From the NCBI GenBank assembly GCA_013407085.1, contig JACCGJ010018192.1, positions 94,045 through 158,044 of the forward strand: DNA of 64,000 nucleotides, given 5' to 3'. Below, one piece after another: positions 23,216-62,117 of this stretch (position 1 is the first letter of the stretch; the number at the start of each line of letters is the position of its first letter). Position numbers and translations under genes: made by a program. Below the pieces are notes generated by a model that saw only the letters and a program-made list of their open reading frames with translations, searched no databases and was not told the origin of the DNA. This DNA comes from Atriophallophorus winterbourni (lineage: Eukaryota > Platyhelminthes > Trematoda > Plagiorchiida > Microphallidae).

Positions 23216-23429
23216 TTCATATATAAACCTACCACGAAGGTTTTTATGAAAGTGGTTCTTATTGATAAAAATTTGAGGCTTTATAACTGGATAGAATAAA
23301 CTGCTCAATCTTCACACGGTATTCAAAAACCGATCAAAATCACGTGTTATCGACCTAAATATTCGGGCGGAATTAAAAACAAATGAGAGTGTAAACCATG
23401 TTATGCTTGTAACGCTAATGTTGAATTGC

Positions 23430-23863: not shown

Positions 23864-24231
23864 GTAGGCTGAATAGAACCAATAAACCGTTCATGTTGAA
23901 TCGTAACTACATTGGTTAGCTTATAGCTGATAATGTGAACACACATTTTGTGTTTATATGTTTAAAATAGTTTTTTAATATTGACTACTCATTAGTAAAT
24001 TATCAACGGAATTATTCTTGTTGTTGGATTCGTTAACTCATTGACGATTACGAATAAACGTCGTCAGTGTGCAGTGATCTTATGCTACACAACATTTCAT
24101 CTGGCTAAACAATCCGATTAGGAAAAACCAATCTTATCGACGGCTTCCCACGCAATGAGCCATACTAGTCAGTTCGGGGGCCTTGACGAGACCAATGCAA
24201 GGAAATTTGAGTGCAATTGGTTAGAGTAGTT

Positions 24232-24277
24232 TTTGGGTAACGTTTCACTTCTGACACAGAAGCTTCGTCAGACCAAA
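24232..24277 (-). ncRNA. Hammerhead-type motif of Penelope-like element
   Basis: On the minus strand: stem I UUUGGU pairs with ACCCAAA (one bulge), core CUGACGA, stem II CUUCU/AGAAG within a longer arm, GAA, minimal stem III ACGU and cleavage-site U. N7 of the core is variable in hammerheads, so CUGACGA is acceptable. It lies about 300 bp downstream of the Penelope ORF on the same strand, where such elements are known to carry hammerheads. Confidence 0.68.
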
Positions 24278-24580
24278 GGTGATAATCAGGACAGAGAACA
24301 TGATGAAGTAGTAGTCAACCCACCACCATTTATTTGACCTTTCTGCTAAACAGCCTATTGTACGCCTACAATGTGTTACGTCTCGTGGGAATGACTAGGA
24401 TCAGTGGTCCATTTTCCTCTTAGTGTGTATCTACGTCAATCTGATACAAGTGAACACGGTCAAGTTCAGTTGACACAGCGGTCCACATACGTAAAAGTAC
24501 ATAACTAACGGGGCTAAGGGTATTTTTAAAGAAAAACAAAAATCTAATTAACTAGTAGGTATAAGGTGAATAAAAACTAT

Positions 24581-25700
24581 TTACTTTCGCAGCAGTGCCG
24601 AGCGCCAGATTGTGGAGATTTCAGCCCCATCCACCTTATTGACCGCCAGTCGACCTGCCTTGGCAATTTCGACCGCCTCCGCATGTAAGTGTTCGCTATA
24701 CGGTTTATTATCGCGTCTCAATATTGCCACATTTTCTAGATTCACGCTCCGCCAAGGCGGAATCACGAATAAGGGATTGATATTCCTTCGCATCCTGGGG
24801 ATGTCTCTGGACACGCTTTTGGTGTTCTTCGATTCTAGTGCGAATTTCCTAGGAAGGCTGCCATATGTGAACACCCAAACAGTCCTTACAGTTGATTCTG
24901 TAGATGCTGTTCGTAACGCTAGATAAAGGTGTCTTATGCTTGAGGTGCATCAGAACTGAACGGATAGTTTTCCCTTTCTTATAAGTTACGCGTATGGCCG
25001 CCTGGTTGAAGATTCTACGTATCTTTTCAGATGTACATTTTACATAATGTATACAAACTGTATCCCGCCAATTTTTCTCCGATTTTTTTGATGGGTATTT
25101 TACCTTCATCAATTCGCGTTTTACAAAACCTTTTGGATAACCGTGGCCTATGATCCTTTGGCTCGCTTCACGGTGCGCCTGTTTTCGTTCTCTTTCGTCG
25201 CTGCACAAGTTTTCTATCTTATGGAAAATGGACCAAGATATGGAATTGAAGACCTGTCTTAGATGAGGGGAAGTGTATCGTAGTACAGCATCTGTATCGA
25301 TTGGTTTTCGATAGATAAAAGTTTTTATTTTCCCGTCTACATTTTGTGATAAACAGTCCAAAAATGGAAGTGTGCCTGTGTATGATTCCACTTCCTTTGT
25401 GACAGTAATACATGGGTCTATTTCATTTAAGTATTTGAAGAAGGCCTCTAACTGATCTCGCTTGATAACAAATGTGACATCAACATAGCAACACCAAAAT
25501 TGTGGCTTTAGCCCTTCATTGTTAATGGATTTGTTCTCGAAATGCTCCATATACATGTTCGCAAGTACTGGAGATATCGGATTATAAATACACAATCGTT
25601 CTCAAACATATTCCAATCGATTGCTGACAAGATCAAGATTCCAGATTGAAAAACTGAAAGCAACATCTGCTGTTTTTCAGCTTGAGGATTACTCTTCACG
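24581..25700 (-). pseudogene. Penelope-like reverse transcriptase / GIY-YIG ORF, broken
   Basis: The longest piece (25595-24849) shows PISPVLANMYMEHFE, CYVDVTFVI, DQLEAFFKYLNEIDP, LPFLDC and FIYRKPTD-type motifs typical of Penelope RT. The catalytic Y-x-D-D reads YVDV, so one catalytic Asp is lost. A shift then leads to RINCKDCLGVHIW, the start of the GIY-YIG domain, a stop, IRTRIEEHQKRVQRH, another shift, and ENVAILRRDNKPYSEHLHAE. The C-terminus AVNKVDGAEISTIW ends at 24581. At least three reading-frame breaks make it inactive. Upstream, residues SIDWNMFENDC and related blocks continue to about 25700. Confidence 0.82.
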
Positions 25701-25739
25701 TCGTGACCATACATTGAGCTGTCTATGACACTTCTTCGA

Positions 25740-26185
25740 AACACGTTGTTTTTGTTGTTGGCCTCCTTCGGTCGATGTTGACCATGGATGTAGACCACGA
25801 AAGCATGGATGTTTATATTCTACAGCTTTTCGAATGACTGAACAGTCCGATTCGGGAGGAACAATCTCTACCGCAGCTCTGGCAACGATAGTCAGAACTC
25901 GTTTGAATTGCATCAATCACACGCCGGCGGCGTGATCTGCATTTAGCAGCCAAGAGCTGTATCTGCTTCTCCCCAGCTTGCAGACGACGCTTTATACAAT
26001 GCCTCCAAAGTGAGCGGTTAAAAGCAAGTTCTTCCCAACTCGCCGGGCCAATGCCAAGAGCTTTCTTATCTCTTTTTCAAACAACTTTGTACCGCAAGTG
26101 CGGTCTGCCCAATGTTCGACTTCCTAATTGCAACTTACCATAGAGTAGATCTTTAGGATTACGACCATTTTCCATTTCGATTCGA
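25740..26185 (-). mobile_element. RTE-clade retrotransposon 3' end
   Basis: Minus-strand translation gives DLLYGKLQLGSRTLGRPHLR, RSLWRHCIKRRLQ, and the C2H2-like finger CGRDCSSRIGLFSHSKSC, then HRPKEANN and the CAA-type tail. GxLxxGxRxxGRPxLR and the terminal finger are hallmarks of the RTE-type ORF2 end. Stops interrupt the frame. This is the best-preserved of five such 3' ends in the window. Confidence 0.75.
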
Positions 26186-27272
26186 TTTAATTAACTTCAT
26201 GCTCAAATAACATGCTCACCACATTGCTCAACGCTCTTGTGGGTCTTATCTCATATAAATTTCTAAAATAGGGACAATTTACATAAACCTCGGCAATCAG
26301 AACAAAGCCAACCTAGGTAGAATAATTAAACTTATCAATTTCCAATCACAATAATATTTGAAAATATTTAAAAGTAAATAATATCTGAGAATCTTTTTGA
26401 TAAACACGTTAATGTAAAATTTATGCCACCATTGAAAACGAAACAAAATTTATATGACCAGGGTTTTTAAAAGATTAGGAATTAAGACATTGAATCTAAC
26501 AATTATTCAAAGCGAATCAATGATTGACACAGTAAAAATGACTTCGACAGCATGATGACATAAATAAGCCTTTGGATTTCGATTTATTACACTACAATTA
26601 ACGCCTGAAAATACAAAAGTCCGTGCGCGGTTTATTTCAAATCGAGACGAGTGAATATTTACGAATGATGCGAACGCTGAAATTGAATACAGGTATTCCA
26701 GAAAGGTTTATCCTAACATTTTATAGTAGTGTTATTTGTATGTTGTTAAATTTCTTACAGTTGTTGGGTTAAATTGTTTTCAATCAATCCCATTACAAAT
26801 TAAAACCTAGTAGATAGCATTTTCAAAATCATAGTTCTGGCAAAATGAAAAGAGAATAAAACGAACCTGATCAATTACTTAGATCTCTATTTTTCAGCTT
26901 CATAAACTCTAATTTTCTGCGTACCGTATCTCGACGCAATACTTAAGTTAACCACATCGAGGTATCTCTTAGTTCATTATGATGATTTCAAAAACACCTG
27001 AAGGGTAACGTCAATTAAGTAACAGCGCAGTTAAAAAATAAGCATTCGTTGAAATCCGGCCCAGTTGAACAGTAAGACGGTTCAATCCAGTTAATAAAAG
27101 GCAAGCAGATCTCTCCAAGTCGTCTCAGGGAATCAGCATTTTATTCACAAATCTTAGTGCTTAACTTCATTTCATTCAAGTAATTTGAAAAATTACGATA
27201 AAATATCATATATATATAAAAGAAATAAAGGAAAAAATTGATAAGAATATTCTTCAAAACATTGAACAACAG
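26186..27272. other. ACSL intron, no features recognised
   Basis: AT-rich intron sequence before the next exon; nothing identifiable. Confidence 0.45.
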
Positions 27273-27377: not shown

Positions 27378-27669
27378 GTATATGAAAAATATTCTTTCAA
27401 TCCACAAGTATTCAACTAAAAAGAATGAGTAGTATGACTTGTGAATGACTGCTTGAATTTCTCATCAAACTCTGTTCGCGCTAGTGCATTTAACACCCGG
27501 TTTGTATTTCACGACACACAACCTGCACATGCAAACCAAACAATAACTAGCCAAATAAACACTCCATTGTTTCCACTTACCACGCATTTCAGAACATAGC
27601 ACACTCAAAACCAGTTCACTGATTTCCGAGAAAGATGAAAATAGTTTTAAACAAAAAACCTTCGAAATC

Positions 27670-27765
27670 ACTGTTTAATAATGGTCGTAGAGCAAACCAC
27701 GATGTTTAAATAGAGAATTACAGAGTGATTACTGGCCAAGCGCTGGAGGTGCTCACGGATAACGA
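27670..27765 (-). repeat. HH-B repeat fragment in ACSL intron
   Basis: Shares GAGCAAACCACGATGTTTAA, GAATTACAGAGTGATTACTG and GGCCAAGCGCT with the 17 kb and 53 kb HH-B units; the ribozyme part is absent. Confidence 0.5.
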
Positions 27766-28106
27766 AATTAATGTGTCGATCACATTAAGTTATACTCCCT
27801 GGATTAGGTCGACATAGAAATGGCACTTGGAAAACTTTAACTGTAGCCATTTCGCTTGGAAGTTTTGCAAATTATTAAAATAAACTACAAAATCTGCTAG
27901 ATAAAGTAATGATCAAAAAATGAATTGTGTGAATTTCAACGATTTGTTTTTCCGATTAATAAACACAATTGTTTGGATTTTATAAGCAAAATATAAATTT
28001 CACTTCTAGTTCACAATTCAAAAATAAAGTTTTATTTTCATTTCTGTTCTGAAAGACTTAGAAATTATTTTATTTCCGTTACCAAAGTTTTGGTGTCAAT
28101 TTTTAG

Positions 28107-28604: not shown

Positions 28605-28945
28605 CAAAGACCTGACACGGATATCTGTTCCGTCGGATGACCACAACGGATTTTGCTGGCTCCTTCTGGACTGGTCGGGCAAACAAAGCTACCCAAATGT
28701 GCCAGTCTGGAGAACAGTTCATAAACGCTAAATTGCGATCGGTAACACGATGGACGGTAGTACAGGTCGTTAATGCTTGGGACTACAAAGGTGGTGGTCG
28801 GGGATTCGAATCCCACCCCGAGCGAAAGGATATGCACTGCTGATGAGCTCAAATAAGAGCCAAACTCGAGTCCAGTGCTTCCATTATGGACCGTCGTGAT
28901 CAACTTTGTGAATAGTTCGATGGGCTTGGCACGGATGAGTAGTCA
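28605..28945 (+). repeat. tRNA-derived SINE with hammerhead (SM-alpha-like), sense copy in ACSL intron
   Basis: Same organisation as the 13.64 kb copy. A tRNA-like head has GGTAGTACAGGTCGTTAA (A-box region, from 28756) and GGATTCGAATCC (B box, 28802-28813), then the hammerhead 20 bp downstream and a conserved 3' part ending near GATGAGTAGTCAC. Confidence 0.8.
28834..28878 (+). ncRNA. Hammerhead ribozyme (SINE type), core mutated
   Basis: Stem I GCACUG/CAGUGC is perfect and extends over an internal loop to GGA/UCC. Stem II GCUC/GAGC, CUGAUGA and stem III ACUCGAGU are intact, but GAAA reads CAAA, so the essential G12 is lost. Probably inactive. It lies on the sense strand of the ACSL pre-mRNA. 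Confidence 0.78.
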
Positions 28946-30084
28946 CAAATATAAACAATATATTCCCTAAAATATCCCTTAGAGCTAGTTATTCTTAAGC
29001 CGTATTGTCAAAACAAAAATCACGTAAACGAATGTGAATAAGCGGATTTTATCCAAGCGCAAGAGTGCAAGTTCACATAGTTTGCCGGGTGCACCCATCT
29101 TCCAATCATTTTTATGGTAAATGGACCCGGTTTCGCTGCCTGAATTAAAGCATTTATTAGTCATATACAGTGAAACATCACGTCTTATAACAATCGTCCA
29201 TGCTATAAATGTAGACATTTAATATGCACGAGATTGACATCGTAATTTTTTTTCGAGATTTTGAGATTCAATATTCAAAAATTTATGGTCACAAAAAGCA
29301 CATAGCTTCACAGTTACCATATCATAGTAAATATTCGTTCAAAAAATAGGTATAAAATAAACATGTAATGTCCAGTTGTATAGTTACCATGAGTCAATAC
29401 GCAGGTGCGGTTGAATCGTTATGCAACAAATAAGTATCCAAATTTCAAATAAACGTTTCGATGTGATCACGATGGCCTCAAACACGGAAGTTTAAATGAA
29501 ACGAGATAAGAATTACTCTGCAGATCCGCTTGTCAATCTCGCTGTCTGGTGAACGACTAAGTGCATCATTTGACGCAAGCGTGTTAATGAATTTTATTGA
29601 ATTTTCATCCACCTTAAACATTCCAAAAAGATACTTAAATTAAATTTAACTATCGCTGTCACAGTTATATGTATATAATAATCGGATTATTAAAACACAA
29701 CAAAAGAAATGATTCCCATGAAAAATATCATCGACCCATTCAGCTCTTCAATTTAAAAATTTATAATGATTGCTGGTGTGTGCAAACTTCCATTAAATTA
29801 TCACAAAATGCCATAAATGGTGGACTAAGCTTGGTATATTCTCAATTTTTCTCGGATCCCATTAATGAGCGTCAATGATACAATAATGGCATACATGCAC
29901 GTTTGCTAGATGCAAGATTTCAACAAGAAAATTCACTAACCTTTCCTAATTCTGATTGGTTTCGTCAAAAACTGAAATTCATGTGTGCTGTTTTAATTTT
30001 TTTCAGTTAAAAATGTTATTATACCTTAACATTATTGTATTATTTAAAGCGACTTTGGCAAATCGTCGGACATTCATTTTACAG

Positions 30085-30257: not shown

Positions 30258-30663
30258 GTATGTTGCAACTTATTTTACCATTTTGCTATAGTATGGCAAT
30301 CGCTAATTTCGATAAGAATGGATTTGAGAAGCTGTTTTAAGTTTCTATTTATATATACCAAGTCCATAATCAAAACGTTTAATCCATAATCAATATAATG
30401 ACGTCGGGTTCTAAAATATTGCACAATTATCGCTGTGAGAATTAAATGTGCTCTTGATTTTAATTAGTTCTAAATTTTTAACTGAAAAAATTTCGGAAAT
30501 GTTCTAATTCGATCACACGGTTAATTGTAGTAAAATGTGTATAAATATTGGATAAGGTTGGTACGACCAACATCTTGAATCATATGAGCTCATAATCATG
30601 TAAACGGGGTTTGAACCCATGATCATGAACAATAACGCTTATTGCATGCATTTCCATCACACA

Positions 30664-30705
30664 CCCCACGACTGGTTTCGTGCTGTTTGCACTCATTAGG
30701 TAGGG
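30664..30705 (-). ncRNA. Hammerhead motif HH-A, core mutated
   Basis: CCCUAC/GUGGGG stem I, GUGC/GCAC stem II, GAAA and stem III ACCAGU are present, but the core reads CUAAUGA (G5 lost). Confidence 0.65.
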
Positions 30706-30824
30706 ACAGTAGGATCAGGATCAAATGCGCTGAAAACAAACAACCTTATCCAACAGTAGTATACAAGAGCAACTTGTTTATCATTCTTCCACTGTTTCAA
30801 GCTTATGCGGATCCTGATCTTACC

Positions 30825-30866
30825 GTCACTACCTGATGAGTGCAAACAGCACCAAATCGGTGTGTG
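30825..30866 (+). ncRNA. Hammerhead motif HH-A, core mutated
   Basis: CUGAUGA and stem II are intact, but GAAA reads CAAA (G12 lost), and stem III and stem I are weakened. On the ACSL sense strand. Confidence 0.55.
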
Positions 30867-31164
30867 TGATTGAAATGCGTGCAAATAAGCTTTTTGTGTA
30901 TAATTATTTTTATTATAATTTAAGCCATTGTTAGATAAATGTTAAATTTAGAGTTGTATATTGAACCCATGCCGAGCGCTCAAGATGCAAGTGCTACCAA
31001 ATGAACATGCTAAGATTTTTAATCAAGCCTGCATTGTTTTGTTTTCATCAAATGAATTCCAGAAGTTCAAATCACGCCCTATTGGAGTTGCCTGTGATCC
31101 ACAGTACAGTTTTTAGAAAAGTAACATTTGAATAGAGCCTTTTAGATTTATGTACACAGTTCAG

Positions 31165-33760: not shown

Positions 33761-34549
33761 GTGCAGCAGGAGCGTGCATAAGTGTGGCTTGACTGAGCTT
33801 ATTCTAAGTCCAATAATTCTATCAATGTCCCGTGTATGAATCTGGTAGGCACTTTACTATAGATGGACAGCAAAATAAGCGCTCGTTATTTTCTCCAGTG
33901 AGGAGCATTTTATTTATGACAGCTCAAGAAGGGATCAATGCGTCTGGTCAGCAAACAACTGCTACTAATCGCTACAATTTCAGTGATTGAATGTAGAACA
34001 ATCTACGCTCATACGGATTTGAGTTGAAAGTCTCCGAAGATTCCGATACGGACCTACTGTTTTGTAAGTGCGGTAATGCGAAAATAGCCTCAAATTGTCC
34101 AGGTATAGTCAACAAGAGGGCGCTTAAATCGGTATCATTTTTTGATGTTGTAGTTGAACACCGGGATTTCTGTAAGAACTTTATTTAACAGTAGCTTTAC
34201 ATCACAACTTTGATTACGGATCGCAGTTATTCTATGAGTAAAACCCTCGACAGGCTGATTTTCAAAGCGAATTCGCTTGGAATTAATTCTCACTACCTGT
34301 AAAAGACAAGCTACTTATAAGTGTAACTTTTAGGTATACGATCGGGTTTGAGACGTGGCAGGGCCAAACACAAACACATATATTTTTTGAATGAATTATT
34401 AGGTTTTTACCAACATTAGTTATTTTCCACCACTCAACAGCACTATATTTTTGTGAAATATTTGTATACAATTTTGAGTATATTGTAAACGATCTAATTA
34501 ATTGTTTTATGCTGCCATGTTGAGATAATCCGCATCATACCATTTACAG

Positions 34550-36305: not shown

Positions 36306-39300
36306 GTAAGTTGTTAGCAGAATCTAAAAAAATATTTCTGCTGAATGATTAACGCTTGGTACAACCTAACTTATTGATTCCCAACAACGCAAGTGGTATT
36401 TGTTTGGGTGTTGGATAATGATAATTGTGTGTCATAAGTGGGAATTTAAACTAATTTCAATTGAACGACACGAAATAAGCATGTTTTGTGAGTAAAATTT
36501 AATTAGCCGCTCAATTTTTATCATCGATAGAACCGATATGCATTCTGAATAGTTGAGTGTTTATCCACGGGATTCTAAGCAAACTGCTCACTTTTTGATT
36601 TTTTCAAAACAAAAAAATTGTTAAAATATCGGAGTTCGTTTACATTGGAAGCTCATAGTATTTACACACAATAGCGATAACGAGAGTATAATTTTAGAAT
36701 ACACAGATTTTCGTATTTGTATCGAGATTAGTGTGCAAATATTCCGTTCATAACTTTATATCTTCTTCATCATACAAATCTAGTCATGTGAGATAAAGTG
36801 GATTGAATTCAGATAGCATTTAAGGTCCGAACGTAGACACTACTCTCCAATCTGAGGGTACTCGCTTGTACAGAAATCACATCACCGTCAAATGATTTAT
36901 TATATCAACGAGTAACAACATAAGGACAATTAGTCACCCATTATTGGAGCTATTATTTGAGTGCCACATGGCAAGTGTTCATAGCAAATGCGACGAATAA
37001 TAAAACGCAAGCTTTTCTTTTATAAGTGGATCTTCCAAATGCAAAAGGAATCTTCGGTTTGTCTCTGTCGTTTATCAATTCGAACTACTTTTTCGAATGA
37101 TTTCGTGTGGAATTGTTCCGTTCGATGCCTAGCGAATTTGTTTTCGTTAGACTGATCTTGAATAACTGCATATCGTTCATTTGCTAATGTACACTTCTGC
37201 TCGATTCATTTTCAGACGAACTGACTTACGGACGATTCACATAGCGTTTTTCTATAACCTAAAATTCTTGTTGATTTCGAATATTTATGTCGGTATTTTC
37301 GGCATTTCCTACTCTTGTGTTGGCCTAGAAAGTGGGGTATTCAAATTCATTCAAGAGTTCTTGTTTAACACTGTTTCCACTCTCAACTAGAGCCGCTTTT
37401 AACTTCTACATTGAGAGCTATTTTATGCACATTTCAATTATCAAAGCTTAATTAAATTTTTTTTAATTTGAATACTCGGCTATACAAGCTTTGTCCGAAG
37501 AGAGACCGAGTGCAGATGGAGAATCCCTTGGTTTCCAACAGGATGTGTAGTGGTAAGACTAATTATAGGTGATGGATGGTGTGCCATCACCGTCGGACTG
37601 ACGAAGCTTCTGCGTGATAGGCGAAACGTTAACAAAAATTGCTTTAAAACTTTATTTTCATGGTGATGACTAATCGATTTGTCCTAAAAATATTCCATTT
37701 AATTTCTCAATGTAGTGTTAAATAAATTTGAGAATTTACTTTGAGCAATAATATCGTCGACATTTCGCGTAAAATATTTGTCCAGAATGGTTGAATTAAT
37801 TATTAAGTGCTCTTTGTTCTAATTTAATTTTTTGCCAATTAAATGCTATTGTTGACTTGTGATGCAAAACTATTTTTCGCTTTTTTTCTTTTTTAAGCGA
37901 TTAACATTAAACGAACACTTGCACTTGTCATTCCTTCCAATGGCACAAATCATGGAATTGATCGCTTTGGTAAGTCCGCCAGAATACAGCATGTTGGCTG
38001 AATTTTCGTGATGTCTACTCCATTGTCTGTTAGCATGATTTCTCGTTTTCAAAGCGAATCGTTTTTACCAAATAATGCCAAACTGACTGCCAGCATAAGA
38101 ACTGGACTACGATTAGTACCGTAAACATATTGAAAATTTGTATTCATTAATATATACAAAGCTGTTATTTCATTAAACTTCGCTAACTGATTTACCACTG
38201 CGTGAAATGATTAATTGTGTAGAGAAAATGAAAACATTTATTGATGTGTCTTTAATAAAAGTTTCCAATGTCAGAAGGAAATGTGCAGAATGTTGTTTAT
38301 TTTAAACACAGGGCATTGCGGTTATTTTTATGTCCAAAATTTCTAACGAATGTTAAATAACTATCGTTTGGCTTTTTGCGAAACAATACTTTTAACTCCA
38401 GAATCATGCAATAAACAAGAAATTTTTAAAGTTAATCTGATTCCACATTAGACGGTTTAAACACAACTAATATGGATTTTCTGAACCTCTATGATAACCA
38501 ATCAAAACAAAAGCAAAATGATTTATTTCATTCAGTTTATTTTTTATATGAATCACGCTTCGCCTAGCTAACGATTCCATGTAAATATAATTTAAATTCT
38601 CCTCAAATGTTCAGCAAAGTGGGGATGGATTTCAATTCCTAACATGGTTGTTAATTTCGGCATAATTAAAGAAAACTTTCAGTCTTGTATTGAAAAATAC
38701 ATTCTATCTCATTTGAGCATACGAAATTTCGAACATGCAATCGTCTACAAACGAATATATTCTACGCATATAGCAAGCCTAACACATTTTTGTGCAACAC
38801 CTGATTACAACATTTTTGAACTTAAGCATCCTACAAACTCAAAAGTCTGACTGAGAATATTCGCGTATTTCTCTCTGGATACGACTTACTGAAAACTAAC
38901 AGATGAACTCGAGAATTTTAAAAATCCTCGAGTCGCAAACAGATTAAATATGTAGCTAAAGTAACCTGGTTTATGCAAACAGGATACTGTTCAGCGACTG
39001 AAACATTTGTGCACATATTAATCCATCCGATCGTTTTCCAGTATGTATGCACAGTTTGTGGCACAGTATTGACTTTCGCTTAACACAAAATGGAGAGATG
39101 GGGTACCTTACGATGATTGATCACATGAAAGGTCCAAATGTATTTTGAAGTATCTATCGCCATACATACTTTATCAGTTACAGATTCTTTCGTTTATTCG
39201 ATTATAATAAAACGGTTACCTAAGATGCGAAATGATGATAGTAAATGGTCTAATAATATCAGACTCTCACAAGAAAACAAAGCTAGCTTTGTGTATCGGA

Positions 39301-42054: not shown

Positions 42055-42389
42055 GTATGTCAAAGTAGTGTTATAATTTAGCGATTTTAAACACAAGGTT
42101 CATTTTCCAATTATTCAACTTCAATAGATAGAAAACAGTCGGTAAATATCAATAAATTATTACAGCACTTTAGGCGTGTGAAACAACTTTGATGAGTAAG
42201 AATAATCATATTTAGACTTTTAATTACCGGGAATAAGGTTCACAGTTTCAAGAGCTCCTTTTTTAAAATGTTGATTAAATTATTTTATGGCTTTATTTCT
42301 GTGGGCACATCATTCATAAAGTCGCCACATCGATTGCATCAGCTGCATGTGTCAATGTATACCTGGTAAAAAAATGGAGCATCACCGTA

Positions 42390-42765
42390 ATCCAAAACAT
42401 ATAGCCTATGGTGAGTTGAAATCAGGAAGTCGAACATTAGACAAAACGATCTGGACATTGACCCTACGAGCTGGGAATAACTTCCTCTTGATCGCTTACT
42501 TCGGAGGTACTGTGTAACGTGTCATCTCTAAGTCAGAAAGGGCTTCCGGCTACTGACCGTAGATCACGTAGATCACGTCATCAGCGTGCAACTAGCATTG
42601 ATCAACTGCGTACTACCTATCGCTATGAGCGCTGGAAGAGGGATGATCACTCCTGAATCGGAATGTTTAGTCTTTCTAAACGCTGTTGAACCTAAAACCA
42701 ACATGCAATTGTGATGTACATTAATGGTAACATCAGCCGAATGAGACCAACAACAACAACAATAG
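42390..42765 (+). mobile_element. RTE-clade 3' end with (CAA)n tail, in ACSL intron
   Basis: Starts with the 'GELKSGSRTLD'-like block, continues through the finger region (GCTATGAGCGCTGG, GATCACTCCTGAATCGGAAT) and ends in ACCAACAACAACAACAA (42750-42766), a clear RTE-type microsatellite tail. Frames are decayed. Confidence 0.68.
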
Positions 42766-43267
42766 TCGCGTTATCCAATTTATTTTATCCGAGAAGTAAT
42801 TTGGTAAAACATAAGAGAGTAAAAAACTTTTTGTTTAGATATAAACCTCAGTATTCCTAGAAAGTATGTGCTGATCAAAGCGAATTTTAATGAAATATTT
42901 TAGCACTACGTTTTCAGGACGGTATGCCAAAAATATATATATCTTAACGCAATAAAGAGGTCATATGCAAATCTTAAAACAACTCCTTCGCAGCAATGTG
43001 CACATCAAGGATTCAAGGATTCAACAAGTATCCATTTGTAACTGTCATTTGTTAAATGTGCTTACGACAAAATCAACGACAGCAGGTGAAAACACTTATA
43101 GTGTTGAAGCTTTGCGAAGTGCAAACAGTTTGCGCTTGCATGCCACTATTGGATTAAGGTTGTACGACCAACCTATTCAAACACATGTGTCCATACACAT
43201 GTTTAATGGGGTTAAACGCATAACCATGAACCAAAATATTTATTTGCATGCATTTCCATCACACACA

Positions 43268-43309
43268 CCCCACGACCGGTTTCGTGCTGTTTGCACTCAT
43301 CAGGTAGGG
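43268..43309 (-). ncRNA. Hammerhead ribozyme, family HH-A, intact
   Basis: Read on the minus strand: stem I CCCUAC pairs with GUGGGG (one G-U), core CUGAUGA, stem II GUGC/GCAC with loop AAACA, GAA, stem III ACCGGU (palindromic; two pairs with a two-base loop, or six pairs in a dimer), cleavage-site C. All conserved core positions are met. Confidence 0.85.
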
Positions 43310-43499
43310 ATAGTAAGATCAGGATCCGCATGCGCTTGAAACAGTGGAGGAATGGTGAACAAGGAGCGCTTGCGCGCCACTGTTGGATTAGGGCTGTAAG
43401 ACCAAGCTATTCAAACACATGTGTCCATACACATGTTTAATGGGGTTAAACGCATAACCATGAACCAAAATATTCATTTGCATGCATTTTCATCACACA

Positions 43500-43541
43500 C
43501 CCGACGACCGTTTCCGTGCTGTTTGCACTCATCAGGTAGGG
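43500..43541 (-). ncRNA. Hammerhead motif HH-A, damaged
   Basis: CUGAUGA and GUGC/GCAC are present, but an extra G precedes GAAA, stem III is shortened to ACGGU and stem I has an A-C mismatch. Probably weak or inactive. Confidence 0.6.
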
Positions 43542-43685
43542 ATAGTAAGATCAGGATCAGCATGCGCTTGAAACAGTGGAGGAATGGTAAACAAGGAGCG
43601 CTACTGCTTGTATTTCAAACACATGTGTCCATGTTTAATGGGGTTAAATGCATAACCATGAACCAAAATATACATTTGCATGCAT

Positions 43686-43717
43686 GATTTCGTGCTGTTT
43701 GCACTCATCAGGTAGGG
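43686..43717 (-). ncRNA. Hammerhead motif HH-A, truncated
   Basis: Stem I first strand, CUGAUGA, stem II and GAAA are present; sequence after GAAA has been replaced, so stem III and the cleavage site are missing. Confidence 0.6.
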
Positions 43718-43874
43718 ATAGTAAGATCAGGATCATGCATGAAACAGTGGAGGAATGGTAAACAAGATACGCTTGTATGCCACTGTAGACCGTTCACACA
43801 TGAACACCAACTCATTGTTTAGACCCATTACCAAGAACAATAACGCTCATTTGCACGCATTTTCATCACACACA

Positions 43875-43916
43875 ACATGCGACCGGTTTCGTGCTGTTTG
43901 CACTCATCAGGTAGGG
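43875..43916 (-). ncRNA. Hammerhead ribozyme HH-A, core intact
   Basis: CUGAUGA, GUGC/GCAC, GAA, ACCGGU and cleavage-site C are all present. The 3' strand of stem I reads GCAUGU, so stem I is largely unpaired. Confidence 0.68.
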
Positions 43917-44554
43917 ACAGTAATATCAGAATCCGCATGCGCTTGAAACAGTGGAGGAATCGTAAACAAGTTACGCTTGTATGCCACTGTTGGATAAGTT
44001 TGGTACGATCTAACTGTTTAATCGCATGTGCCATAACACATGTAGTGTTCATACTAATGATTATGAACGAAAATACTCATTGGCATGCCGGATTTAGCCT
44101 CCTATTAATGAAACACTGCTCTCTCATCAAATTGATGAATCAGTGTGATTAAAAACTAGTGTATTTGTGTCAATCGATAAAGTTGGCTAAACTTTTGCAT
44201 CAACAAATGGAAACATATGATTGTTGAAATTAGGTGCATGATTATAGTTCGTATGCAGTTGAGCTTGTTGTTACGATTATGTATAAAAGCATAAGATTAA
44301 TCCAGGCAAAGTGCAGGACAGTTGAAGACTCTTTACGAGTTAAGACAACAGCTGTCATTGCGACTTCATGCGGTTGTGATCTGACACACTCCAATTTCGA
44401 GAAAACATCTGAACTATAGGTTAGACTGTAGCTACGTTAGTCGACTTTACGATGGTTTTCATCATATACATGCCTGAAACACACGTGCATGATTGAAAGC
44501 TGAATTCCGAGAAAATGCTTGTGAATGGGTTTCTATAACACATGAAGAACTTTA

Positions 44555-44660
44555 AAGAATGCGGATTGTGATCGTAATGTCCCTACCTGATGAGTGCAAA
44601 CGGTACGAAACCGATCGTAGGGTGCACGTGTGATGGAATTATATGCAAGTGATGGTCTTC
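44555..44660 (+). repeat. HH-A repeat, sense copy in ACSL intron
   Basis: A partial unit with GCGGATTGTGATCGTAATGT before and GGTGCACGTGTGATGGAA after a hammerhead block. Confidence 0.65.
44581..44622 (+). ncRNA. Hammerhead ribozyme, family HH-A, stem I fully Watson-Crick
   Basis: Stem I CCCUAC pairs perfectly with GUAGGG, where other copies have a U-G pair. CUGAUGA and GAAA are intact, stem II is GUGC/GUAC with one G-U. Stem III reads ACCGAU, so its second pair is a C-A mismatch that probably weakens it. Confidence 0.75.
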
Positions 44661-45058
44661 ATTTATTATGTACATTAGTTTGAGGCTTTTTGAAACCACA
44701 GCTGAAATATTCCATGAGGACGCTCATACTTTACTGACGGTCTATATATAGTTAAACTGGCGGAGTCCCTTGAATGTATACACACGAGGAGCTAACAATA
44801 CATTCTGTCTGTTTGCAAACTGTAAACGGAAATAAGGGTTATATTTTGATGACCAAACTTGAAAGTAGTATATTGCATAATGTTTTACGCTACAAAAATT
44901 GCTACAACACAAATCACACGTGGCTACATCGTTGGCTTTCATGAACTGGCGTATGCAGAGCTTCGATACTTAACGAACTCACGAAACTCACATACTTGGC
45001 TTTTTTCATAAATGATAAGCACTGTATGGAGTTATCTCATTTTATTTCATCAATACAG

Positions 45059-45223
45059 GTGCTCCAAGCATACGGTTGCACGGAAGCTGGAGGTGCCGTC
45101 AGTTCAACTTTTCAGTGTGACAGCAGCTCTGGTCATGTTGGATCTATTCTGCCAGGAATAAAAGTCAAGATAGTCGATGTACCATCGCTTGGCTATGTGG
45201 TGAAAGAATGTGGTCTTGGTGAG
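45059..45223 (+). CDS. ACSL: ACSL exon i
   Basis: Acceptor AATACAG, donor GTGAGT; 165 nt, phase 0 to 0. Encodes LQAYGCTEAGGAVSSTF, GHVGSILPGIKVKIVDVPS and ends CGLGE. Contains the adenylate-forming YGxTE motif that contacts the adenylate. Confidence 0.95.
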
Positions 45224-46045
45224 GTGAGTTAATTCCTTTCATATACACTGAACCAGTAATTTAGAACCATCAAACACTCCAATATCTGCGATAAATAACG
45301 AGATACGAAATTTGAGATCTTTTGGCTGATGAAACGAAGTGATTAAAACATAACAATTTTGACAACCGGTGGAGACAATTTTTATATATTGATCATGGAT
45401 TAGCCAGTGAACCGACTAGCGTAAGAGTTTCATATCGAATTAAGTAATATATGTAGAGACATTATTGTAAGCTACATCTGTGAGGCATCCAACAAATACA
45501 CGCGAAACCAATGTCAATCGACTACATTGCTCAGTCAGTAAATTTATAAAGTCTAACACGAGAGACCATGCGTACGACCACGTTTTATCACCATAAAAAT
45601 GAACAAAGCAAATTAATCTACTGATTATGCTACGATTAAGTAACAGCCTCCATATATTGATTTTCGAAAAGTACAATTTTTCGACCAGGATAAACATTCG
45701 TGTTCCCATGAAATTTAAGATTATTAGAGATTTCAATTCAATATTAAACAAATGTATAATATATATAATACTCTACTCTATAATAAATCGTTTTCTTGTT
45801 TGTAATAAGGAAAGTTTATTTCTTCACTTTGTGCGCATTCCGTTTCGCTGACCAAGTTAATATACTCATCTCACAGAAACAATTCGCTGGATAAATCCAG
45901 TATTCTTAGATTTTATTTTGAAACTAATAATGTAGGTAACATCTCCTTTAAACATTGGGTCGTATTTTGTAATTGTTTTGATTAGCCGAATTGTAGTGAA
46001 TGAGAGAAGTTAACAGGTTTACGGATAGAACGTTTATGACGCTAC
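45224..46045. other. ACSL intron, no features recognised
   Basis: AT-rich, no coding or repeat signal identified. Confidence 0.4.
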
Positions 46046-46970: not shown

Positions 46971-47719
46971 GTGAGTAATACTGCTCGACGTTTGTCGAAA
47001 TTTTAAAATTTAATCATCGACGAATTCGCATCAAGAATATCAGTCGGTTGAGCTTTCGAATATATTCGGACATGAAGGTCGTTCAAATAAAGATCTTTTA
47101 TTGAATAAACGTTTCATTTTATTTTTTTACTACATCACATTAAAACTGTCTATTAGAAACGAAACTTTGTCAAACCGTCACATACAGCAAGTTGGTGGTG
47201 TTTTTTAATGAAAATGAAATTTCACAATTCATGGTCACTAATGTGTAAGTTTACGGTGATTAACGACAGAATGGCAGGGTGAAAATTTATAAAGCGTTAA
47301 AATTCCTCATAAACACAAACTGCATGGACACGGGGGTGATAACTGAACACAACCAGTGGTATCTTTATTGTTTGCAAGACACAGCTGTCCTTCTAATTTC
47401 TTAACTATCATCTACAATTCAAATAATTAGCAGCGTTAGATATTCAAGTTCGTCTGATTTAGTTGAAAGTTGAAACGTGCTGGTGTAAAATTTAGATTTC
47501 CATATGAATGTTGTCTGCATTTGACGAGCAATATATTTTCGGCCAGTTTTTTTGTGCTGCTCACACGTCTCATCACATGCCCATACTGGATTTCGTCTGT
47601 GTGGATTTACTACGTGGAGAAAGAAAAGTTGGGTTTCGTAAGCCGATTTATATTTCGTGAGAGTGGGACCTTGACATAATGCAAACAGATTAAGTTAGGT
47701 CAATCTTGAAAAGATGGCG

Positions 47720-48399: not shown

Positions 48400-48530
48400 T
48401 CATTTTACTTAAATACACTTTCGTTAAAAAACCCATATTTGCATGAATTTTCATCACTCAAGCCTAGCACGGTTTCGTGCTGTTTACTGCCATCAGGTGA
48501 TGACGCGCTCAAGCTAAGTCGCTCTGACGC
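48400..48530 (-). repeat. HH-A repeat with decayed hammerhead
   Basis: Contains TTTGCATGAATTTTCATCAC and a minus-strand block CUGAUGG...CAGCACGAAACCGUG (about 48463-48500). The core has A9 changed and stem pairing is lost. Confidence 0.5.
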
Positions 48531-53101: not shown

Positions 53102-53264
53102 ATTGATCTACAGCTGATGCTAATTTTATATTATTTGCAATCTGTAACATATAAAATGAAAAGCAATGTCTGGCATATTCAATAACAGTCACAGCTACCG
53201 AACCAATTCTATCCTGGTATTGTTCGCTAGAGTTATCAATGTAAAGTTCTGATTATCCTTGTAT

Positions 53265-53570
53265 TGTGGTGCCCACATTCCCATCTCTTACACACCACTA
53301 CTGGTTTCTGAATGTTTACCGTCGTCAAGAGGACATAGTAAGATCAGTTTCAGTGAGCCTTGAAACAGTGGTAAAGTGGCAAACAAAATTATACATTTCT
53401 GCCGCTGATAAATAGGGTTGTTACAAAGAACAATGATAACCAAATACAGAACCACAAGTGATTTCTGATCAAGCGCTTGAGGAGCTTAAAAATGTATTGT
53501 GGTGCTCACATCCCCATCCCTTACACACCACTACCGGTTTCTTGTTCTTTGTAAGAACCCCATATATCAG
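53265..53570 (-). repeat. HH-B repeats, two partial units
   Basis: Shares CACATTCCCATCTCTTACAC, CACCACTACTGGTTTC, GAAACAGTGGTAAAGTGGCA and ACAAAGAACAATGATAACCA with the 17 kb array. The hammerhead block near 53293-53332 has a decayed core (CUUGACGA); the second unit ends at ACCGGTTTC. Confidence 0.6.
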
Positions 53571-53749
53571 TAGCGATACAATTATAACTTTGTTTAACGA
53601 TCCATGTTCGAACGCGGTATTGTAAACTTATGTATTGGCTTGCACGCAAAAGTGCTCATTTGTGAACTAACAATTTAACTCATGCTGATCTCATACTCAT
53701 AACTCATACCCATAACTGATCTTGTTGCGAAACGTATATAAATTTCATG

Positions 53750-54150
53750 CTAATTTGCAGGCATTCCATCACACACATTCCATTTTTACAATATTTCACG
53801 GCATGCAGATCCTACTACTACTGTTCCAACCACAAGATTGCAAACAGCACGTAACCGCTCGTGGGCTTCACAATATTGAAATACAATCAAAGCATGCAAA
53901 TGAATATTTTGTTTCAAATGAGTATCTGTTTTCATGACCATAAGTTTAATCTCATTTACATATGGTTTGCACTTGTGATCGAACATGTTGTTCGTGTCAA
54001 CCTTATCTATCAATGGTTTACAAACGCAACTTGTTTTGTGTTCTTACACTGTTTCAAAGCATTTAGATTCTGATTGTTCTGTCCCTACCTTCGAATTACA
54101 ATCTATACGTAACCGGTCATGTAGTGTGTAATAAAAAGGCATATATCTGA
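53750..54150 (+). repeat. HH-A repeats, decayed
   Basis: Two plus-strand units, from GCATGCAGATCCTACTACTA (about 53802) and TTACACTGTTTCAAAGCATT (about 54044), each with stem II/GAAA-like remains but no intact core. Just upstream an inverted scrap GGCATTCCATCACACACA occurs. Confidence 0.5.
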
Positions 54151-55435
54151 AATATGAAATATGAACTGTGTGAAAGATCAACTTCAATAAACTGGTCCGA
54201 TGAACAATCAAAGACGATTTAAAGTACTACAAATTCGATTGCTTTTTTTCGTCATAGCAAGCTAATAAAGAAACACGTTGTTTTCAACAAGAGGCATTTT
54301 AGCTCTCAACTGCTCTAATGAACGCGATCTAGCGACTTAAATTCGATAGACTCAATTTTCACAGGATGTGCATATACAATTTTCAAAGCACACAGATTTT
54401 TGACGACATGATGTTGACGTGGCGATTTGAAAATTTATACGAAATCAGATCAATCTACTTCAGATATGAACTTCTCGAATGAAAATAACAAAACTCTTTG
54501 CAATTTTTCACGAACCAAATCAATGATTCATTTGACTATGATCTTTAATGTTTTAGTCAATATAACCTGCAAGCATCAATGTACGCCAATGATTTCAGTA
54601 CTATTGCCTAACAAAAATTTCTATATATCTATTTGAGATTAAGCTACGGGCTTCTTATATCGTTCGTTGTTCCAGATTTCCAATTTTTACCGGTAACCTT
54701 ACAAAGCATAGCATAGTTGGGCCACCTCCAACGAAATATGGAATACCCAGTTATAAAAATGTAGCCTTCAATCCACGAGAACTGTTACCCCAATTATACT
54801 TCTAAATTACTCAAAACTAAAAACTAATGCAAACTTAAGTTCAACATTTTGAGCACCAATTTATCTGTCAGCTTTTTCTGATAAACGTAGCCAGGACAGT
54901 TCATTCAAGAATTTGGTATTTAAACGGTCAGATTGTATTTGCGAATCGAATGCCTGGAACCATTTTCAAACAGATGTCTGGATGGGTTCGAAGCCATATA
55001 GAATAATCGTTAATTCAGAGTTAGTTCAGCTACGATGTCTTGAGCTCAAAAGTGCACAATCCGTCGAGCTAGAGGCTGCACAAAAGGAGACCATACAATC
55101 CGATAACTATTTTACTTGCTGTGTTATAAATCCTTCCCAGTAGAGTAATATATTTTTCAAACCATTTTGACTAATCTTGTGCTGTATAATCTACAACTGA
55201 GTGTGTATGTAATGAGTACATTTCGTCAATGAGTGCGGTGTAAAGCGCCCGAAAGTTCGCCTTAGTGAGCGTAGTACGCTACATGTACACCTATAGAGAG
55301 CCAAGCAACGCAGATTGTTTTCCAAATTTCAGCACACGCAGATATGGAGATCTGTTTTTCCTATGAACTCAACTCAAGCGCATTACTACCTTTAGTATAA
55401 GAACAGGCGTTCAATTCTATACAATTTTAATGGTC
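54151..55435. other. Low-information AT-rich DNA
   Basis: No gene or repeat recognised; an open frame at 54913-55143 (+) is without family motifs. Confidence 0.35.
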
Positions 55436-58167: not shown

Positions 58168-58336
58168 GGGTCCACGACAGTTGCTCCTTGACAATTGCTC
58201 CCCGACAATTACTCCGCGACAATAGCTCTTCGACAATAGCTCCTTGGTATATTTGCTCCTTGCCCATTTGCTCCTTGCCCAATTGCTCCTTGTCTAATTG
58301 CTTTTCGCCCTATTGCTCCCTGACCAATTGCTAATG
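58168..58336. repeat. Left terminal inverted repeat of MULE
   Basis: Made of about eleven imperfect copies of a 13-16 bp unit built on (A/C)AATTGCTCCTTG(A/C)C. Inverted relative to 61961-62117. Confidence 0.85.
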
Positions 58337-58617
58337 ACTTTTAGATCACGATCAGATTGATTAACATTGCGACGAAAATAATTCATACAAGTGAAGACAA
58401 GTATTTTTTCTTCGTTTAACATTTTAATAAAAATTGATTAAAATACTATAGATCACTGTAATAACAATACTAATAACTAAATCATGTGTTTTTCAGTGTT
58501 TTGCACAAAATCCTGGTCTCATGTCTGATAACTGCACACAAAAAAATACTACTGTTATAAAATATCTTCCAAACTACTGTCTTGATTGTCTTCCCCTTCT
58601 TCCTCTGCAACAGAAGC

Positions 58618-60194
58618 CTACAAATTGTAGCAAAAGGCAATGTTCTTGAGTACACTCACGGTGTCCCGACCCTGTTGAACTTCAACAACTCTTTTAATTC
58701 TTTCTGCCAGTTTGATGTGTTTCTTCCTTTTTGGTGGTGAGGGCTGACCACTCAACAGCTAGGTAATTGTGTTTTTGTTTAACATATGTTCTTTTTTGAT
58801 GCTGTCAATGAATCTGAACACATGAGGGAAGAACGCTCACACAAGAGACTGCATTCTGTTGTGCCAGGCCTCGATACTGTTGTTGGTTCGTGGCATGTCT
58901 GACATGGTGCGTTCGTACTGGTTCCACAGTTCGATGGGAAACATGGGGGCACGGCGTTCAGCTCCTTGCCGTCTTGGTGGCCTCCCGATCCAGGTGTCTT
59001 CAAAATAGTCAACAAATGCCTCGCCTCCCTTCTCTGCCATGCATGTGACGAAACCTTGATTTTCTGTCAGAGTTTCAAATGCCCCAACAACTTGGTCACG
59101 GGGAAGAAATGCAAGCGCAGAAAGACACCGAATCCAACATGCAAAAAGACCATCCTCTTCAGCATAGGTGGTCGCTAATCCAAGTTGCTGACACTTCCTC
59201 CAGCAGCACTGACCCAGATGAAAGAAGCAGCCTGTCACTACAAGGCCAGGAAACTCCTGTTCAAAAGCACGGATGGCAGCATTTTCAAAGTCACACATCA
59301 AGGTCGTCGGTGCAAGGTTTGGCTGCAGCTCTCTGAGAGCCTGTTTAAAAAAAGAAAGAAAAAAGATAAAAGCATAAAAACGCATATGTGTCAGTAAGGG
59401 GTGGAAAATGTCATGAAAATAATGAAAATGATGAAAATAACCCTAACGCTTATCATGCTGAATAAGATAATGGTATTGTGTACCTGTAGAACCCGACGAT
59501 ATACTGCCGTTGTTTTTCCAGGCAGCAGTGCAAACACCACCGGCATCATGAGTCCTTGGCAGAAACAGTGTATTGTGTACAATTGATGGAATGAGCTGGG
59601 CGCCATTTGAAATGTTCCATCGGCAAACCAGTGTTGACTTTCAGACAATAACATCAGATTTTCGTGGGTTGAGAAAATTAGAATGCGCTGAGAGCCAGGT
59701 CCAGAGTCGTGCAGAAGAAAGAGCTCACCATCATAAAAGGTCTTGTAGTCATCAGGAATATTCAGATCTTCCAGACTTGCAGGCAGTGGTGGGACCCCAC
59801 CATTGCGGTTTCGCGTTCTTTGTATTTGTCTCTTAAGTGCCCGTTCTTTTGGCAAAGAAGCTGCTATGACTTCAGAAACGCCTGTACACTGACTGGCAAT
59901 GATCATCATTGTGGTTTCTTCTGTTGTAGACGCTTGTCTTTTGATGGAATCAACTACCTTCAGAACATTCTGGCGACACGCGTCGGGGGCATGGTTGTGC
60001 TCTGAAGACTTCAAGATTGTATTTACACGGAGATGGAGTCGCCCGGAACAGTGGTCTTTACGCTTTCGTTCACACACATAAAATTCAACAGTGGGGTCAC
60101 TCTTGCTGGTTTCCTTTTTGTTGTACACGAAACCTTCGTAGCAAGCCTTAGGTTTCCCTTTTTCAGACAAATACCAAGTAACGTGTCTGTCCAT
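58618..60194 (-). pseudogene. MULE transposase with FLYWCH zinc finger, two exons, nonsense mutations
   Basis: Exon 1 (60194-59484) has an N-terminal FLYWCH-like finger (CYEGFVYN, FYVCERKRKDHCSGRLH, HNHAPD) and FADGTFQMAP with the first catalytic Asp. A 143 bp intron (GTACAC...TTAAACAG, 59483-59341) separates exon 2, which carries CDFENAAIRAF (second catalytic Asp), GCFFHLGQCCWRKCQ, LAFLP and TNNSIEAWHN. The frame meets TGA at 58837-58839 and TAG at 58759-58761 before a probable natural stop at 58618-58620. Downstream residues (FPHVFRFIDSIKKEH, LLSGQPSPPKRKKHI) are still family-like, so these are recent inactivating mutations. The protein would cut and paste the element. Confidence 0.88.
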
Positions 60195-60235
60195 TTTAAA
60201 AGGTAGCCTTCAACTGAACTATTTAACTATTTATG

Positions 60236-61850
60236 ACAATCAAACAAATTCAAATTCAAATTCAAAGAGTTATGAGTAAAAAGTTAATACTTTACAACAC
60301 CACAGAATAACGGTATTAATATAACATGAAAATACAATAGTATAAAAGCAATGGAGAATATCAAATGTAATGCTTACGAATGTTATTCTTTTGCATATGT
60401 AAGTCCAATTTCACTTTGAACGCCGCCAGGCAAAGAGAGTTCACCACATGTTGGGGTAGGGAATTCCAAAGAAATATAGCACGTATGGCGAAAAAATGGC
60501 GCCGACAGTCAATACGGGAACTTGGAACGTAAAGGGATAAGGTATGTCCGCGTGTCACTTTCCCATCACACACATCAAGCAAGTGTTTTAGTGGATGTCC
60601 TTCGGTAGACACAATTCTATAAGTCAGAATAATACGCGTAGTATCCTCCTTTGGGCAAAGTCGCATAGACCCAGACGTCGCAATCTTTCGGCGTACGGAA
60701 CATTGCGAAGACCCATCACTAACTTTGTTGCTCTATGATAGATTTTATCGAAGAGAGCAATATCCTTTCGCAGCCAATGAGCCCAGACCTCTACCGCATA
60801 CTCCATCACTAGGCGTTTGTGGGTCAGTAGCATCCGTTAACTTGCTTCCGGCTATTACCTTGGGCAAGCTCAACACGACGTTTTGTGGTAGGTTTTTTCT
60901 ATTAGCTTTCCATTCACGTTTGATAGTATCCGTCATTTCGGTTGTGAAGAAGGTTAGCTTTAAACGGCTAGGACTTTGCCCTTTATAGTTGGCAGACCGC
61001 GATATCCTAAAAGCATCCACAAGTATGGCAATTTTAATACCAATTGTTTCGTCCAGATATTTCCATTGTTTGTGGTCGTGCTCAGACTTTCCTTGAAATG
61101 TACGTCAGCAGCATCTTCCGAAACACCTAGAATTATAATACTTCTCGGATTACATTCTCCACGAGATTTCTGCGACGATTTTTGCTCCCACCATGGTAAG
61201 TCTGCATGGATACGACATGTAGTCTCTTGAACACCTCTAAGAATGTAAGCATTTAAGAGAACGTTTTCTACGTCCTCCGCAGATTGCGGCGTTATTCCCA
61301 AAAGGCGAGGATCATCCTTGTGAGGAGAATTCAGGTGGCGGTTTAATCGAACTATCGATGAAGTAGTAACTGCGGCCAAGCTCATCTGACTGCAGAGTTT
61401 ACACCACTCAGCTAAGTCATGTTTTTGCTTAGCTTCAAACAGCGTTTCCTGCGACTCGGTCACGTTTGTACATATAACGCTAAGGTTTACAACCGCGGAT
61501 TTTGTTGTATAATGTGAGTCAGTCATTTTAGTAGCAGTGGTTTTTTGAGTCCTTTTTCGTTTCCGTTAAGTCGAGGAGTCACTGATCTCAACGAACGCCT
61601 CCCCGTTTTAGTCACCATCTGCGCGGTTATCTGGGCAAATGTTGGCCTGCTCGAGTATAATGGATTATCTCCCGGCTCTTCGGCAGTAACGACGGGTAAC
61701 GACAGTGTCTTCATGACATTTATTATCAGTTCATTTAGTTTTTGTATACTGGATTCCATTCCATTTAGACGCGTCTCAATATCATATTCAGGGATCTTCG
61801 TTGCCGAGTAAACAAGTAAACAAGTGAACTGAGTTTAATCTCAAACCAGC
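60236..61850 (-). pseudogene. CR1-like retrotransposon with internal deletion, nested in MULE
   Basis: From 61759 down, ORF1 pieces read SSRPTFAQITAQMV, RSIIILGVSEDAADVHF and RLKLTFFTTEMTDTIKREWK, with frame breaks near 61523 and 61020. Near 60830 the sequence passes directly into the last part of ORF2: MEYAVEVWAHWLRKDI, TRGHTLSLYVPSSRIDCRR, FFAIRAIFLWNSLPQHVV. The endonuclease and RT core, about 2.5 kb, are missing. The 3' end is an (AATTTG)n-like repeat at 60246-60266. It sits upstream of the transposase start inside the MULE. Confidence 0.8.
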
Positions 61851-61930
61851 TAGAGTGACCCTACTGTTGATTTTTATGCGTGTGAACGAAAGCGCAAAGA
61901 CCACTGTTCTAGGCGACTCCATCTCCGTGG

Positions 61931-61954
61931 AACTGAGTTCAAGTGAACTCAGTT
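61931..61954. repeat. Perfect short palindrome next to right TIR
   Basis: AACTGAGTTC and GAACTCAGTT separated by AAGT; a related AACTGAGTTTAATCTCA lies at about 61828. Confidence 0.8.
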
Positions 61955-61960
61955 CACTTG

Positions 61961-62117
61961 TACAAGGAGCAATTGGTCGAGGAGCAATTGGGCAAGGATC
62001 AAATGTCCAAGGAGCAACTGTCCGAGGAGTAATTTGTCAAGGAGCAATTGTCAGAGGAGCAATTGTCAAGGATCAACTGTCGGGGAGCAATTGTCAAGGA
62101 GCAACTGTCGGTACCCC
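61961..62117. repeat. Right terminal inverted repeat of MULE
   Basis: Tandem CAAGGAGCAATTG-type units, the inverse of the left end; the outer 40 bp match best. Confidence 0.85.

Follow-up and report, generated by a model that had tools for sequence, protein, structure and literature searches.

What does a tandem array of hammerhead ribozyme motifs in a trematode genome represent: a source of self-processed RNAs, a local satellite or the trace of a mobile element? The array in question, HH-A, lies on contig JACCGJ010018192.1 of Atriophallophorus winterbourni (GenBank assembly GCA_013407085.1) and was analyzed within a window of 64,000 nucleotides (contig positions 94,045 to 158,044), to which all coordinates below refer. 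An earlier note, made from the letters alone, had described four repeat units, each with a minus-strand hammerhead, whose tandem transcripts could process themselves. Our verdict is that the array is a real but mostly dead cluster of a dispersed, hammerhead-bearing, non-autonomous retroelement. HH-A has relatives at eight other places in the window, one of these places being flanked by a strong target-site duplication, its copies tend to end just past the hammerhead, and some stand head to head. It is probably a non-coding element of the metazoan retrozyme type, whose RNA is copied by target priming, with reverse transcription beginning just downstream of the hammerhead.

A complete type I hammerhead can be read on the minus strand of positions 43268-43309: CCCUAC, CUGAUGA, GUGC-AAACA-GCAC, GAA, ACCGGU, C and GUGGGG. 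Every conserved core position is present, as the earlier note had claimed, and the layout is that of type I (core CUGANGA / GAA-A / U-H, stems I and II, open at stem I); the plus-strand motif at 44581, in an inverted neighboring copy, has the same layout with a mismatch in inner stem III. A strict descriptor retrieved two hammerheads from the whole window, 43268 (minus) and 44581 (plus), versus one match in total from 400 dinucleotide shuffles of the window (0.0025 per window), and the motif is therefore not a chance occurrence. Against the Rfam model Hammerhead_1 (RF00163), whose gathering score is 34, the 43268 motif scores 32.9 bits (E value 2.5e-4 over the window and 5.1e-6 over 43000-44300), narrowly short of the above-threshold match that the earlier note had looked to. 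The three other array units also lie below the gathering score (Table 1), which no HH-A hammerhead reaches. Scans of viral contig and genome contig collections for the exact motif gave no matches in either.

The earlier note had credited all four units with the full set of hammerhead elements. A residue-by-residue check found GAA, ACCGGU and C together in two of the four, and a fully pairing stem I besides in one. The limits of the array by homology, ca. 43115-44089, are close to the 43130-44085 proposed there; the proposed 245 bp unit gives way to an irregular spacing of the conserved hammerhead segment (232, 176 and 199). One nhmmer search returned the minus-strand rows 43685-43116 and 44089-43614 and another returned 43685-43115 and 44088-43687, while Tandem Repeats Finder did not include the array among its listed repeats. 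Since the release of unit-length RNA requires two working ribozymes in tandem, and one unit in four is intact, no unit-length RNA is expected from this array; we have rejected self-processing of its transcripts to unit length. The array is best explained as the remains of an old insertion, not as a current source of such RNAs.

Comparison of the array with the window by blastn revealed relatives at eight other places in the 64 kb. The copies fall into two subfamilies, with subfamily B copies at 16657-17166 and 53259-53556 and at four weaker places (Table 1). Because the family is dispersed and one insertion carries a strong target-site duplication, HH-A is a mobile element and not only a local satellite. 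Another dispersed repeat, with copies ca. 64-76% identical, occurs at 15092-15482, 18063-18260, 20343-20470, 25746-26177 and 42372-42762; two of the five have an HH-A copy (18395 or 43115) no more than 400 bases away.

Target-site duplications were assessed for 14 placements, 12 of HH-A and two of an SM-alpha-like repeat described below. The 14-bp duplication around the insertion at 30550-30894 was not equaled by any random placement in two tests (0/300 and 0/400). Weak candidates were obtained for three further placements: the composite insert 43114-44679 (as good in 17/400 random placements, and in 64/300 before its right end was adjusted), 22165-22318 (10 bp, ATACGATTAT/ATACAATTAT; 17/400, and 64/300 before adjustment of the ends) and the pair at 16651-18716 (9 bp; 27/400 and 189/300, respectively). 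These three prove little, because their ends were adjusted after a first test in which they were unremarkable. By homology, the right end of the inverted copy is 44659 or 44654, and it moves to 44679 only if the candidate duplication is real. The other ten placements showed nothing notable as duplications.

The ends of ten copies were next placed on a 240-nt circle, with the two array rows counted as one copy, the four weaker subfamily B places set aside, and a plus-strand row at 43140-43462, which overlies the array on the opposite strand, omitted. As for the subfamily B copy at 53.3 kb, its 5′ end was taken from one of two homology searches that differed. Seven of the ten copies have their sense 3′ end in a 28-nt stretch directly beyond the hammerhead (simulated p = 0.00135); for other widths, p was 0.042 (20 nt, 5/10), 0.0036 (32 nt) and 0.010 (40 nt). 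The sense 5′ ends are not clustered (p from 0.17 to 0.51). Clustered 3′ ends past the hammerhead together with scattered 5′ ends are the pattern that target-primed reverse transcription leaves. The cluster was seen without resolution of two discrete start sites 30-40 bp apart. In addition, two abutting minus-then-plus pairs are present among the ten copies, an arrangement found in none of 40000 random layouts, at least one such pair occurring in 0.4% of them; the evidence for the second pair, at 53.78 kb, is a short match. The 5′ end of the copy at 22165-22318 (position 22318) would fit a cleaved RNA template, being 1 base from the predicted cleavage site, though this is a single case with a weak duplication.

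Table 1. Positions of HH-A copies, hammerhead motifs and associated features in the window
Feature	Position	Strand	Details
HH-A tandem array, four hammerhead-bearing units and partial ends	43115-44089	- (hammerhead sense)	nhmmer; direct repeats D1-D6
Intact hammerhead	43268-43309	-	Full core, stem I 6/6, stem II 4/4, ACCGGU, predicted cleavage after C
Degenerate hammerhead	43497-43541	-	GAAA to GGAA, ACCGGU to AACGGU, stem I 5/6; 20.5 bits
Degenerate hammerhead	43680-43717	-	Stem III and cleavage site lost, stem I 2/6; 18.4 bits
Hammerhead with intact core	43875-43916	-	ACCGGU-C present, stem I 3/6; RF00163 22.5 bits
Extended hairpin around the intact hammerhead	43240-43345	-	Closed by GCAUGCG/UGCAUGC; fold -34.0 kcal/mol, 5/200 shuffles as stable
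Inverted HH-A copy	44558-44679	+	Hammerhead 44581-44622 (core intact, stem I 6/6, stem III ACCGAU); 23.6 bits, descriptor
Candidate left target-site duplication of composite 43114-44679 insert	43104-43113		TTGAAGCTTT; partner TTGAGGCTTT at 44680-44689; 9/10 identical, weak
HH-A copies joined head to head (minus, then plus), taken as a single insertion	30550-30894		nhmmer rows 30737-30547 (minus) and 30744-30896 (plus)
Left target-site duplication of 30550-30894	30536-30549		TGTGTATAAATATT; right copy TGTGTATAATTATT at 30895-30908; 13/14 identical
Single HH-A copy	22165-22318	-	Sense 5′ end 1 nt from predicted cleavage site
HH-A copy with two decayed hammerheads	18395-18711	+
Subfamily B copies	16657-17166	-	Hammerheads 16688 (broken) and 16897 (core intact, stem I 5/6, stem II 3/4)
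Subfamily B copies (minus) and short HH-A stretch, then HH-A copies (plus)	53266-54151		Second probable head-to-head locus
HH-A fragment covering hammerhead	48436-48500	-	Core broken
Weaker subfamily B places	23400-23535, 27614-27785, 34042-34209, 47532-47645
B-box consensus fit GGGTTCAAACCC in two HH-A copies	22251-22259, 30608-30616	-	Array units read GTTTAACCC or are changed there

The sequence ACCGGU would hardly be able to form a two-pair stem with a two-base loop. In silico, the optimum of the bare 42-mer at 43268 as a monomer (-14.1 kcal/mol) is not the hammerhead; two strands fold best into precisely the double hammerhead, stems I and III being formed between them, at -32.3 versus 2 x -14.1 kcal/mol. 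The co-fold favors a dimer, in line with the earlier proposal of a type I hammerhead whose stem III is weak, as in the newt, and could form between two RNAs; the HH-A ribozyme is predicted to work as a dimer and would offer a natural example of such dependence. With ACCGAU in stem III, the 44581 motif prefers a different fold as a dimer (-25.7 versus -21.9 kcal/mol for the hammerhead). The inner part of the extended hairpin also takes a non-hammerhead fold in the single-strand optimum, and consensus folding of this hairpin gave back stem II alone.

A cycle can be proposed along these lines. HH-A is found in the window singly, in short direct tandem runs and paired head to head. Its transcripts would contain a type I hammerhead whose stem III has one pair; as ACCGGU is self-complementary, two units would anneal and each cleave the other in a double hammerhead, a step suggested by the folding. 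The RNA would then be copied into new sites from a start just downstream of the hammerhead, as the copy ends and the one strong duplication indicate. Cleavage, circles and the enzyme are steps that we infer.

As to the enzyme, the likeliest mover of HH-A would be a Penelope-like reverse transcriptase, a view we hold tentatively and somewhat below an even chance. The insertion pattern suggests such an enzyme without proving it: an internal start past the ribozyme, head-to-head arms and an AT-rich duplicated target are Penelope signatures, which HH-A insertions would have kept if it is a retrozyme moved in this way, a possible reading of about the same weight.

Several points weigh against this account. 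Only one of the 12 HH-A placements has a strong duplication and, with so many placements, about one duplication at the level of the weak candidates is expected by chance. The clustering of 3′ ends may be inflated by local alignments of decayed copies that stop at the edge of the best-conserved part; the two subfamily B ends are simply where similarity to the HH-A consensus stops, and a single window supplied every end. The 15 aligned copies show no clear sign of selection. Their core, kept in four and broken in 11, has a mean identity (0.88) that does not stand above that of the loops (0.87) or the 5′ flank (0.85), so the copies look like decaying sequences rather than genes under selection; the stems (0.76 and 0.77) and the 3′ flank (0.64) are below the core. 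Two stem II pairs have changes on both sides, and total pair covariation is not above the shuffled expectation. A covariance model built on the 15 copies found 16 matches in the window, the 15 training copies and a new one at 17114-17187. Nor is the 232-nt unit unusually self-paired (z = -1.09, 29/200 shuffles as stable), the test having been made with the linear unit 43310-43541, whose ribozyme is broken. Against a Penelope-like enzyme in particular, 14-bp duplications and inverted 5′ parts occur with enzymes of long interspersed nuclear elements (LINEs) as well. Descent of HH-A from the Penelope-like stretch of this window at 23900-26700 was considered and rejected, since blastn found no match between them. 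Finally, according to passages of PMC11167929, RNA of an anole Penelope element with a dead ribozyme was inserted in vitro as well as the wild type, and thus the hammerhead need not be used for insertion.

The alternative that survives best is a short interspersed (SINE-like) element of the same kind moved by a LINE-type enzyme (CR1 or RTE), its head-to-head pairs being made by twin priming. Open reading frames (ORFs) for LINE-type reverse transcriptase and endonuclease are present in the window, and twin priming and long duplications are LINE habits. This reading keeps its place because a B-box-like sequence, GGGTTCAAACCC, which fits the RNA polymerase III consensus, is found at the same position in two of the ten HH-A copies (22164-22307 and 30547-30737). 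However, the sense strand of the other eight lacks a B box, 34 B-box matches occur over both strands of the whole window, which we judge close to chance, and no poly(A) stretch or LINE-like tail came to attention at the 3′ end of HH-A copies, though no systematic search was made. We therefore regard it as unlikely, if worth keeping in mind.

Less likely again is a satellite-like repeat akin to the W-elements of schistosomes, its spread being due to recombination or DNA circles and the hammerhead being a passenger. The tandem order and decay of the array fit such a repeat, and W-element families of Schistosoma mansoni include hammerhead-like sequences in the portion of PMC8490949 that deals with them; dispersal with a 14-bp duplication and the clustering of 3′ ends points instead to retrotransposition.

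On a similarly low footing we place HH-A as a remnant of a larger autonomous Penelope-like element, or as a derivative of one by internal deletion, in which the hammerhead-bearing repeat would be the pseudo-long terminal repeat (pLTR). Passages of PMC11167929 and PMC3846280 describe pLTRs with a head-to-head layout and short tandem repeats, and a Penelope-like stretch with a hammerhead-like motif does lie at 23900-26700. Yet blastn shows no sequence in common between HH-A and this stretch or its motif at 24242, nothing else in the window matches the 468-nt spacer 44090-44557 at E 1e-4, and none of the three ORFs of at least 90 amino acids overlapping the array has a Pfam match. A chance or convergent hammerhead look-alike in an unrelated repeat, which all four array units being under the Rfam gathering score might favor, is very improbable in view of the two strict matches versus 0.0025 per shuffled window and of the intact core also present in the subfamily B copy at 16897.

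Several other features of the window deserve mention. Within the Penelope-like stretch, 24581-25819 (minus strand) holds broken ORFs that resemble a Penelope-like reverse transcriptase and endonuclease, which is what we take them to be. Two pieces scanned had no Pfam match; one piece has four homologues, of which the best is 50% identical and contains a reverse transcriptase domain. Downstream of the Penelope-like ORF, 24242-24271 (minus) reads CTGACGAAGCTTCTG...GAAACGTT, as does 37598-37627 (plus), the two being 79% identical over 63 bases. This resembles a minimal hammerhead with palindromic ACGU, and neither motif has an Rfam match up to E 10. For a reverse transcriptase ORF of the window, the best 120 of 7862 matches include two Dicrocoelium dendriticum clusters (52% and 51% identical) and many unnamed, bird and other animal proteins; the two clusters, like the SM-alpha-like repeats described next, point to a flatworm. 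Two copies of another repeat, 82% identical, lie at 13640-13977 (minus) and 28610-28949 (plus) and presumably belong with the flatworm SM-alpha element; the repeat has a hammerhead, and inspection by eye showed a tRNA-like box (in the second copy, GGGATTCGAATCCC). Rfam's hammerhead cut-off is exceeded once in the window, at 13711-13755, by a hammerhead different from that of HH-A, and 28822-28895 scores 36.8 bits for HH9 (cut-off 52). At 58171-62110, inverted arrays of a ca. 15-bp repeat (58175-58330 versus 62110-61955) flank ORFs for a MULE transposase and FLYWCH (58837-60209), as if this were a DNA transposon with tandem-repeat ends. Large inverted duplications at 2636-6284, 96.5-97% identical (2636-3325 with 5595-6284, and 3316-4048 with 4443-5177), cover apparent reverse transcriptase ORFs of the type without long terminal repeats (non-LTR). 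The HH-A array itself is upstream of a plus-strand ORF (44945-45232) with a match to AMP-binding enzyme; it is perhaps in an intron of that gene, which would put the hammerhead strand antisense to it.

How, then, does HH-A compare with known systems? Retrozymes of animals and W-elements of schistosomes in which stem III is very short are already on record, as passages of PMC7229834 and PMC8490949 report. The portion of Cervera and de la Pena 2020 (PMC7229834) drawn on here lists platyhelminths among the carriers of metazoan retrozymes and gives as marks of the non-LTR kind a small size, tandem multimers, low GC content, longer duplications, a type I hammerhead and circular RNA. HH-A shares the short tandems within 150-450 bp (spacing 176-232), the type I hammerhead, the low GC content (0.429 in the array) and, in one strong 14-bp case, a duplication above 4 bp. 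It differs in its head-to-head pairs and in a unit RNA that is not unusually self-paired. Abundant circular and linear unit-length RNA is a further retrozyme mark in the same portion of that paper. The axolotl Amex1 stem III, as passages of it describe, is one pair with a palindromic tetraloop, and ACCGGU in HH-A would be likewise.

Among flatworm repeats, S. mansoni W25.2, W26.2 and W27.2 have hammerhead-like sequences, as does HH-A, a likeness by description only; unlike HH-A, they are presented in the relevant part of PMC8490949 as satellite-like families of the W chromosome and autosomes. The same part reports that three of five S. mansoni hammerhead candidates tested cleaved in vitro, the other two having core or cleavage-site defects. 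It also names SM-alpha, a flatworm repeat with a type I hammerhead like HH-A; they are compared by description only, and HH-A differs from the SM-alpha-like copies of the window in that blastn gave no match to them and a B-box-like sequence occurs in only two of its ten copies.

With Penelope-like elements HH-A has in common the hammerhead, partial tandems, head-to-head inverted repeats, a start past the hammerhead and an AT-rich target. In passages of PMC3846280 these elements have head-to-head inverted pLTRs and 8-10 bp duplications, and in those of PMC11167929 reverse transcription starts internally, downstream of the hammerhead, at AT-rich targets. The insertion at 30550-30894 likewise combines head-to-head inverted terminal repeats with a short target-site duplication. 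Penelope-like elements have an optional 30-40 bp 3′ tail, as described there, and encode a reverse transcriptase with a GIY-YIG endonuclease; HH-A encodes no recognized protein in the ORFs of at least 90 amino acids that overlap the array. A 2020 review (PMC7761336), in the sections that touch on this question, leaves open the enzyme that carries animal retrozymes into new sites and names Penelope-like elements as likely movers, without proof. If our reading is true, HH-A would join non-autonomous retrozymes to the autonomous elements named there as likely candidates, and its insertion scars with Penelope-like features make the question of the enzyme testable by counting copy ends in one genome.
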